From: Chitinophagaceae bacterium
Lineage (GTDB): Bacteria > Bacteroidota > Bacteroidia > Chitinophagales > Chitinophagaceae
DNA length: 11,265 nt
NCBI GenBank assembly: GCA_025455245.1
Contig: JALOMX010000028.1
Span: 1 to 11,265, forward strand
Reading direction: 5' to 3'
Both the position numbers and the translations under genes were made by a program. Within the stretch, counting starts at the first letter, position 1, and every line of letters starts with the position of its first letter. Positions 548 to 1,595 of this stretch are shown one piece after another. Below the pieces are notes generated by a model, which saw only the letters and a list, made by a program, of their open reading frames with translations, did no database searches and was not told where the DNA came from.

Positions 548-1012
548 TTAGGTTACCTGGATATTACGGCTAAAACTTTCTTCGAGTGAGATAAAGGTCT
601 CGGTACGTTCAATGCCTTTAATTTTTTGTAACTGATCATGCAGGACGCTCCTCAATTGGCCGATGTCCCTGCATACAATTTCACAGAACATACTGTAGTT
701 TCCGGTGGTGTAATTGAGCCTTACAATCTCCGGGATTTTCCTAAGTTCCTGAGCTACAACATCATACATCGAACTTTTTTCGAGATATATCCCTAAAAAA
801 GCAATGACATCATATCCCATGATCTTTTTGTCAATGGAAAGTTTGGTACCTTTTGCAATGCCCAGTTCCTCTAATTTTTTAATGCGGACATGTATTGTTC
901 CTCCGCTTACCCCTAACTTTTTGCCGAGGTCTGCATACGAAATTTCAGCATCATCAACCATCTGCTGAATGATTTGGAAGTCAAGTCTGTCCAAATGCGG
1001 TTTTGAGTTCAT
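548..1012 (-). CDS. Lrp/AsnC family transcriptional regulator
   Basis: This 154-residue protein has the usual length and two-part layout of Lrp/AsnC proteins. An N-terminal winged helix-turn-helix spans about residues 6-60: Leu-Asp at the start, then the Ala-Asp-Leu-Gly-Lys-Lys-Leu-Gly-Val-Ser recognition region and a Lys-Lys-Leu-Glu-Glu helix. A C-terminal RAM/ligand-sensing domain spans about 68-150, with the family-typical Thr-Gly-Asn-Tyr-Ser segment. Such proteins form dimers to octamers on DNA and answer to amino acids or related metabolites. The effector here is unknown, and neither neighbour is an amino-acid gene. The ATG at 1012 is preceded by an A-rich stretch without a Shine-Dalgarno sequence, as usual in Bacteroidota. 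It is transcribed away from the 760-base spacer that carries the tRNA-like RNA; autoregulation through that spacer is plausible but not shown. Confidence 0.93.
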   Translation of the reverse strand: MNSKPHLDRLDFQIIQQMVDDAEISYADLGKKLGVSGGTIHVRIKKLEELGIAKGTKLSIDKKIMGYDVIAFLGIYLEKSSMYDVVAQELRKIPEIVRLNYTTGNYSMFCEIVCRDIGQLRSVLHDQLQKIKGIERTETFISLEESFSRNIQVT

Positions 1013-1095: not shown

Positions 1096-1127
1096 TTTGG
1101 AATCTATAGTGAGTGGTTATAATATTG
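1096..1127 (+). promoter_or_regulatory. Candidate Bacteroidota-type promoter reading toward the tRNA-like RNA
   Basis: TTTG at 1096-1099 is followed after exactly 20 bases by TAATATTG at 1120-1127. The Bacteroidota housekeeping consensus is TTTG, a spacer of about 19-21, then TAnnTTTG; only one base of the -7 box differs. Transcription would start near 1133-1136 and reach the terminator at 1565-1595, giving a primary transcript of about 460 nt. The region is AT-rich, so a chance match is possible. I found no better match closer to the tRNA-like gene. Confidence 0.4.
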
Positions 1128-1364: not shown

Positions 1365-1559
1365 TGTGGGGTGATGAAATTTTTGGCAGACATGCCCTCT
1401 TGTCTCGAGGGTGGAGAGCAAAGGATAAACACTGCGTAACGCCGATTCCGACTGCAGCGGAACCGACTGGGGTTGACCACCAATCGGCCGGGATAGCTTC
1501 CCGACACTCGATGCGCAGCGGCTAACTTCTCCGTGGAGGTTCGAATCCTCCCCCTACAG
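1365..1559 (+). ncRNA. tRNA-like RNA (class II, Leu-like body) with a giant structured variable arm
   Basis: A full cloverleaf can be drawn. The acceptor stem is TGTGGGG 1365-1371 with CCCTACA 1552-1558 (seven pairs, one G-U), with unpaired G 1559 as discriminator and no encoded CCA. T8-G9 are 1372-1373. The D stem is ATG/CAT (1374-1376/1391-1393), with a 14-nt loop containing GG at 1385-1386. The anticodon stem is CCCTC/GAGGG (1395-1399/1407-1411), with loop TTGTCTC giving U33 and a nominal GUC anticodon. The T arm is GGAGG-TTCGAAT-CCTCC (1535-1551). The D arm matches bacterial tRNA-Leu in pattern (AAATT..GG.AGA) with three extra loop bases. The variable region runs 1412-1534 (123 nt). Its base is an ordinary class II stem, GGAGA 1413-1417 with TCTCC 1528-1532, extendable by wobbles at both ends. 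Inside that stem lie about 110 nt with further helices: 1432-1436/1514-1518, 1441-1447/1482-1488 and the hairpin 1489-1503. Oddities are U37, a U1-A72 first pair and G73. It could be a non-decoding tRNA-derived RNA, a divergent tRNA, or a pseudogene that keeps its fold by chance. The structure reading is confident; the function is unknown. Confidence 0.7.
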
Positions 1560-1564
1560 CACTG

Positions 1565-1595
1565 AAAACCCCGGCGAAAGCCGGGGTTTTGTTTT
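1565..1595 (+). terminator. Strong intrinsic terminator of the tRNA-like RNA
   Basis: AAAACCCCGGC (1565-1575) pairs perfectly with GCCGGGGTTTT (1580-1590) across a GAAA tetraloop, and the T-rich run TTTTGTTTT ends at 1595. It begins five bases after the last base of the tRNA-like fold. This strongly suggests that the RNA is a separate, deliberately ended transcript, and it insulates the merR gene downstream. Confidence 0.93.

Follow-up and report, generated by a model that had tools for sequence, protein, structure and literature searches.

A family of tRNA-like RNAs with a domain-sized variable arm in Bacteroidota and their phages, and its possible connection with asparagine

INTRODUCTION

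Several described systems resemble the RNA reported here in part. tRNA-dependent asparagine synthesis, as presented in PMC4206432, combines a relaxed aspartyl-tRNA synthetase (ND-AspRS) with GatCAB; both act on a decoding tRNA-Asn (anticodon GUU) with a U1-A72 pair, and GatCAB may be kept beside AsnRS and GlnRS. The present RNA has the same U1-A72 pair and candidate features for AspRS and GatCAB, and its hosts likewise keep GatCAB beside the two synthetases. It differs in looking non-decoding and in its anticodon, GUC, with which an ordinary AspRS would do. According to the account in PMC4482635, Escherichia coli AsnC activates asnA when asparagine is absent, and asparagine abolishes this activation. 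Here too an AsnC-type regulator adjoins a gene proposed for making asparagine, but that gene is an RNA rather than a synthetase and its control by AsnC is putative.

Allo-tRNAs and selC* tRNA-Cys (PMC7609411) also have long variable arms, and their anticodons, which include GUC, are unexpected too. Those treated in that source come from other phyla and combine 8/4 or 9/3 acceptor/T stems with a serine or cysteine identity, whereas the present RNA has 7/5 stems (8 if position -1 pairs) and a far larger arm. The tRNA-Other of Bacillus cereus is a tRNA-like element with no function in translation, as is proposed for the present RNA; PMC3399842 describes it as one pseudo-tRNA that lies by a genomic island and is contained in a larger RNA, whereas here a family extends across orders and phages. 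tmRNA is also a non-coding RNA with a chargeable tRNA-like part. The present RNA has no anticodon-less tRNA half, and tmRNA was rejected as its identity: the window has no RF00023 match, and 35 of 36 relatives have a separate tmRNA over the cut-off. In the open-access literature, with most subscription journals and all bioRxiv-only preprints outside the scope, no description of the family was recognised.

RESULTS AND DISCUSSION

The RNA and its structure

The window, i.e. the whole stretch of DNA analysed, comprises 11,265 nt of a 78%-complete metagenome-assembled genome (MAG) of a Chitinophagaceae bacterium, whose named relatives are Bacteroidota. The original prediction had placed at 1365-1559 a tRNA-like RNA with all the cloverleaf elements (U8, GG, U33, the T loop and others), a variable (V) region of 123 nt, an ordinary class II stem at the base of the V arm and an 11-bp terminator behind. 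Each of these is present, as follows.

548-1012, minus strand: divergent AsnC-family regulator (closest PDB sequence, E. coli AsnC)
1097-1127, plus strand: promoter motif TTG-N17-22-TAnn[TA]TTG, directed toward the RNA
1365-1559, plus strand: tRNA-like RNA, discriminator G73 included (cloverleaf; covariation; 155.9 bits with a covariance model that had this copy among its training sequences)
1365-1371, plus strand: acceptor stem 5' strand UGUGGGG, pairing with 1552-1558; U1-A72, G2-C71
1372-1394, plus strand: U8 (1372), G9, D arm (stem 1374-1376/1391-1393, GG at 1385-1386) and G26
1395-1411, plus strand: anticodon arm, stem 1395-1399/1407-1411, loop UUGUCUC at 1400-1406 (anticodon GUC 1402-1404, U37 1405, C38 1406)
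1412-1534, plus strand: 123-nt variable domain (10 of 14 arm pairs doubly changed; inner coordinates mapped by eye)
about 1413-1417/1528-1532, plus strand: V stem (1413-1416/1529-1532 in the domain map)
1421-1423/1526-1528, plus strand: arm helix
1424-1431 and 1521-1525, plus strand: arm internal loop, GGAUAAAC and GCUAA
1432-1438/1512-1518, plus strand: covarying inner helix
1475-1480, plus strand: GACCAC motif, inner hairpin of the arm
1535-1558, plus strand: T arm (1535-1539/1547-1551, loop UUCGAAU) and acceptor 3' strand (1552-1558)
1565-1590, plus strand: terminator-like hairpin of 11 bp with a GAAA loop and a T run (seen in the sequence; sub-threshold Rfam hairpin matches there)
1773-2858: MerR-type gene, downstream neighbour of the RNA

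The structural features of a tRNA are thus in place, with a cloverleaf, U8, GG in the D loop, a UUCRA T loop and a 7-bp acceptor stem; C74 is encoded at 1560, after the discriminator. ARAGORN predicted no gene in the window, and Rfam 15 gave no tRNA match there even at E 10. Nor was there any Rfam match at the RNA in seven further loci, so that in the window and these loci no unrelated Rfam family claims it. ARAGORN calls just five 96-nt phage copies, as tRNA-Asp.

Folded as a single sequence, the RNA is only mildly better than shuffles (z -1.91; -2.46 when the V region is taken by itself), and the case therefore rests on homologues. Covariation was assessed over 35 pairs in an alignment of 66 of the 79 dereplicated long-arm copies that hold GACCAC. 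In this alignment 98.2% of cells pair, against 85.0% in shuffles and 45-56% in slid controls; as the structure had been derived from this alignment's own consensus, with the D stem added, the slid control is biased towards it. Double changes occur in 20 of the 35 pairs (covariation score 0.460 versus 0.180), and doubly changed cells number 338 against 75.2 in shuffles. This strong covariation, and V regions of 26-144 nt (median 87) across 270 unique copies, support the predicted tRNA-like RNA in which the class II variable arm has been turned into a structured domain. One predicted helix, 1441-1447/1482-1488, fared less well; it forms in the window fold, but inspection by eye shows another sequence in place of its partner strand in two loci of the same genus (L011, L012).

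GACCAC is found in 198 of 230 arms of at least 68 nt and in none of 40 shorter arms, and its GAC is complementary to the GUC loop. At position -1 (1364 in the window), 242 of 270 copies have C or U and the other 28 have A. This base is never G and could therefore pair with G73, giving an 8-bp acceptor stem.

Extent of the family

The RNA at 1365-1559 belongs to a large family. Matches were obtained by blastn in 56 of 99 genomes, including the source MAG. One of these, G070, was left out of the RNA/GatB tables; in its locus L051 (977-1114, minus strand) the 3' half of the RNA alone is recognisable (30.5 bits with the covariance model), and this copy is possibly a decayed RNA. A pattern of D arm plus anticodon arm yielded at least 120 stretches in contigs of named genomes and at least 120 in IMG/VR viral contigs. 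Copies were then delimited with a finder that fixed GUC, the D-arm end, U8 and the T loop, required at least six acceptor pairs, imposed A at 20a and left positions 1, 2, 32, 33, 37, 38 and 71-74 free. It returned 321 copies, 270 of them unique (206 bacterial, 64 from viral contigs); in 30 of the 120 listed viral matches a strict finder gave no full cloverleaf. By title, the listed matches among at least 120 named-genome loci comprise 43 Chitinophagales, 31 Cytophagales, 18 Saprospirales, 4 Flavobacteriales, 22 Bacteroidota without a placed order and two without a phylum. At least two different copies are present in 24 of the 107 listed named-genome loci that the finder resolved. Locus L109 has an extra copy (loop UGGUCUC) between the AsnC gene and the copy found by the pattern.

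The covariance model, R1, also matches ordinary Leu-like tRNAs at about 40-58 bits, and at least 73 bits was therefore required; G148 (62.6 bits) was left out under this cut. Of 52 model-collected loci, 13 yielded no row in the recount described below, and in two of the 39 recount rows (V of 170) adjacent copies were taken for a single one. That the family and its structure are real we regard as practically certain. A search of plasmids matched the terminator end alone.

Lineage f65 has lost GUC, while U1-A72, G2-C71, C38 and G73 are kept. Its members are a 77-nt form in G148 (L407, 538-614, minus strand), in which the variable region is very short and the loop reads CUAUCUC, and a copy in G250 (L399) with loop CUCUCUC. 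G250 has no GlnRS over the cut-off.

Aspartate and amidation determinants

Bacterial aspartate identity lies mainly in G73, G34, U35, C36 and C38, with the G2 pair as a minor element; U1-A72 is what confers amidation by GatCAB, which G1-C72 and U20a block (both as set out in PMC9976931). Among the 270 unique copies, which include those from contig scans that imposed GUC, C38 and pyrimidines at 32, 33 and 37, G73, C38 and G2-C71 are each present in 270 and U1-A72 in 267. Because of what the scans imposed, a recount was made on other collections. C38, U1-A72, G2-C71 and G73 occur in 69 of 69 unique copies collected by blastn. Of the 39 unique rows found with the covariance model, whose training copies had GUC, 37 show GUC together with C38, the exceptions being loops CUCUCUC and UCGUCUA, and all 39 show U1-A72, G2-C71 and G73. 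Base 20a is A in 39/39 of these rows (37 by script, two by eye). The family therefore displays the tRNA-Asp identity set (G73, G34 U35 C36, C38, G2-C71) and the features of a GatCAB substrate (U1-A72, no U20a). It lacks the G1-C72 pair, which according to PMC9976931 is invariant in bacterial tRNA-Asp and is described as helping to position the 3' end in AspRS; G10 is found in just 10 of 270 copies.

Position 37 is U, C or G in 262, seven and one of the 270 copies, and U or G in 35 and four of the 39 model-collected rows. It is never A, the base of ordinary tRNA-Asp, and decoding is therefore unlikely. The combination of U33 with a purine at 37 expected of an elongator is not the rule either, with U33 in 225/270 and 28/39 and a purine (G) at 37 in 1/270 and 4/39. 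In its determinants, then, the RNA looks chargeable with aspartate and amidable, yet unfit to decode. On these features we consider it quite probably a substrate of AspRS and, with somewhat less assurance, probably one of GatCAB.

A role as the sole tRNA-Asp of its genome was rejected, as an ordinary tRNA-Asp(GUC) exists in relative G008. One C is encoded after the discriminator, followed by any base, and the same C74 is seen in the 30 G008 tRNA genes printed. At the N-terminal AspRS residue that we take to tell discriminating from relaxed enzymes, most of 20 sequences have F, with and without the RNA. G008 also holds a 136-nt Rfam tRNA match near glnS (L488; G008:C1:2206280-2206415, minus strand). 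By eye this is tRNA-Gly-like with about 60 nt inserted in the T arm, and ARAGORN with intron search gave no call for it.

The AsnC-type neighbour

Among the 121 host loci listed, 77 have an AsnC-family gene upstream on the other strand within 1 kb, at a median distance of 169 bp; 11 have less than 900 nt upstream, and the gene is missing in 33 of the other 110. This adjacency led us to reject a mobile origin of the host copy. Two members of the neighbour family were compared with E. coli AsnC: the window protein scores 110.8 bits against it, 75.1 against the next PDB chain and 47.9 against Lrp, and the first 90 residues of a Marivirga neighbour also match AsnC best (67.0 versus 41.6). An adjacent AsnC-type gene, as expected of an AsnC regulon, is thus present. 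In E. coli, asnC and asnA are adjacent and divergent. Given this neighbour and the control of asnA by AsnC, the RNA stands where an asparagine-making gene might.

The motif TTG-N17-22-TAnn[TA]TTG, which we take to be a Bacteroidota-type promoter consensus, points toward the RNA in 35 of 77 intergenic regions and the other way in eight, with shuffle means of 2.0 and 3.3 and maxima of 7 and 9. The RNA is presumably transcribed, and its gene is probably controlled by the AsnC-type regulator. No shared gapped 5-mer palindrome reached the threshold in the intergenic regions. A recurrent neighbour, which by its sequence looks like sufB, lies near the RNA in 11 of the host loci listed (e.g. L149), with eight of the genes within 1 kb.

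Co-occurrence with GatB

GatB was sought afterwards, because of the amidation idea, and the covariance model was applied to blastn-negative genomes to establish the presence of the RNA. GatB was found in 29 of 36 near-complete relatives and AsnRS in 35. GatB is present in 28 of 28 RNA-positive genomes of this set and in one of eight RNA-negative genomes; the latter, G078, is without GlnRS. GlnRS was searched in 35 of the 36, and among the 31 relatives with both GlnRS and AsnRS, 25 have GatB as well as the RNA and six have neither. In 59 relatives from the family of the window, GatB occurs in 42 of 44 RNA-positive genomes (a fragment below cut-off in G021 being counted) and in one of 15 RNA-negative genomes (all model-checked except G055). 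The discordant genomes are G046, with GatB and no RNA, and G003 and G009 (incomplete MAGs, 79% and 90%), with the RNA and no GatB match. In a class survey of 246 genomes, the RNA (at least 73 bits) was present in 44, among them the incomplete source MAG, in which GatB was not found. That MAG aside, GatB was present in 43 of 43 RNA-positive genomes versus 138 of 202 without the RNA.

The Fisher tests applied to these tables take no account of kinship. In a GlnRS tree with 36 genomes (30 that have both GatB and the RNA, six that have neither), the joint absence comes down to two changes, and only one independent pair rests on starred branches. The link between GatB and the RNA is therefore one that rests on few independent losses. 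It is also weakened by the U1-A72 tRNA-Asn in all 67 genera tabulated in PMC4206432 with AsnRS, GlnRS and GatCAB, since GatCAB would then have another substrate. On the RNA-bearing contig L157, the tRNA-Asn has G1-C72. The one tRNA-Asn found among 33 tRNA matches of G008 (L326) has C1-G72, and C73 instead of the usual G73. With G1-C72 in one and C1-G72 in the other, the usual route on tRNA-Asn is not expected there. Contig ends were searched for further tRNA-Asn genes and none was found. AsnB (TIGR01536) is over the cut-off in 35 of 41 genomes and does not track the RNA, being missing in RNA-positive G024, G027, G031, G099 and G324 and in RNA-negative G040.

Phage copies

In 62 of the 120 viral loci listed, the RNA is followed by a protein cluster on the same strand, which starts 122-2873 nt after the conserved core. 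A member of this cluster matches the terminase large subunit phrog_6681, and a member of a downstream cluster matches the portal protein phrog_6547; we assume these terminase and portal genes to be crAss-type (Crassvirales). An ordinary tRNA gene lies within 2 kb in 47 of the 120 listed viral loci. At L208 (2510-3776), and also at L224, L217 and L225, the phage RNA has a run of 4-7 ordinary tRNA genes nearby, with the same orientation. Of the 64 viral copies, 62 have U1-A72 and all have G73. Searches of INPHARED phage records gave one 29-base match and otherwise none, i.e. no convincing match.

Possible function and alternative explanations

The anticodon GUC, the determinants and the AsnC-type neighbour, none of which was part of the original prediction, together with the GatB co-occurrence and the phage copies that likewise went beyond it, are best accommodated, in our view, by a pathway on the RNA itself. 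AspRS would load it with aspartate, reading G34 U35 C36, C38 and G73. GatCAB would turn this Asp into Asn on the RNA, reading U1-A72 without U20a, and the GUC loop without A37, often without U33, would keep the product out of ordinary decoding. An AsnC-type asparagine regulator would control the RNA gene. That AspRS charges the RNA, GatCAB makes Asn on it and AsnC controls it has, we consider, somewhat better than an even chance of being correct. That a large arm might hinder AspRS counts against this reading. Under it, the arm may serve for docking, e.g. in a complex of AspRS and GatCAB with the RNA, or may keep the RNA away from the ribosome.

G73, G2-C71 and a large variable region are also features used by SerRS, as given in PMC9976931 and PMC7609411, and the three tRNA-Ser inspected in G008 have G73 as well. 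A serine-charged class II tRNA-like RNA related to allo-tRNAs is nevertheless unlikely: in 267 of 270 copies A72 stands where the serine set has C72, and SerRS gives no reason to conserve GUC and C38. The RNA might also be an AsnC-controlled base-pairing small RNA that has its seed in the GUC-U-C loop and a stable scaffold in the tRNA fold; an invariant loop core with a divergent regulator is the layout of regulator/small-RNA pairs. Such an RNA would leave the invariant G73 and G2-C71 (270/270), U1-A72 (267/270) and the co-occurrence with GatB unexplained, and we consider it improbable.

The phage copies bear on two further explanations. At least 120 viral stretches hold the loop pattern, and phage copies are often by tRNA genes, as might be expected of a tRNA that acts as a decoy or in counter-defence, e.g. 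against tRNA-cutting enzymes, and that has spread among phages and hosts. The AsnC neighbour of 77 of the 121 listed host loci, over several orders, looks like housekeeping instead, and makes a decoy very unlikely. The tRNA genes beside 47 of 120 listed viral loci, the cloverleaf and the tRNA-like 3' end grammar G73-C74 would suit a working elongator tRNA for Asp or Asn with a large arm. This has very little probability, with position 37 never A, position 33 other than U in 45/270 and 11/39, and the ordinary tRNA-Asp(GUC) of G008.

If AspRS and GatCAB do act on the RNA, its likeliest role would be asparagine supply or asparagine sensing, and we place such a role under AsnC slightly short of an even chance. 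The fuller proposal is more tentative: a non-decoding RNA would serve as the carrier for conversion of Asp to Asn, the RNA gene that makes asparagine would be under asparagine feedback through AsnC, and some Bacteroidota phages would carry it as a metabolic gene.

Were it true, an amino acid would be made on a specialised RNA that does not take part in translation. This would explain why GatCAB is kept in many Bacteroidota despite the presence of GlnRS and AsnRS, and some phages of Bacteroidota would carry a metabolic gene made of RNA. Even without the mechanism, it is unexpected that several orders and their phages share a family of tRNA-derived RNAs in which the variable arm has the size of a domain.
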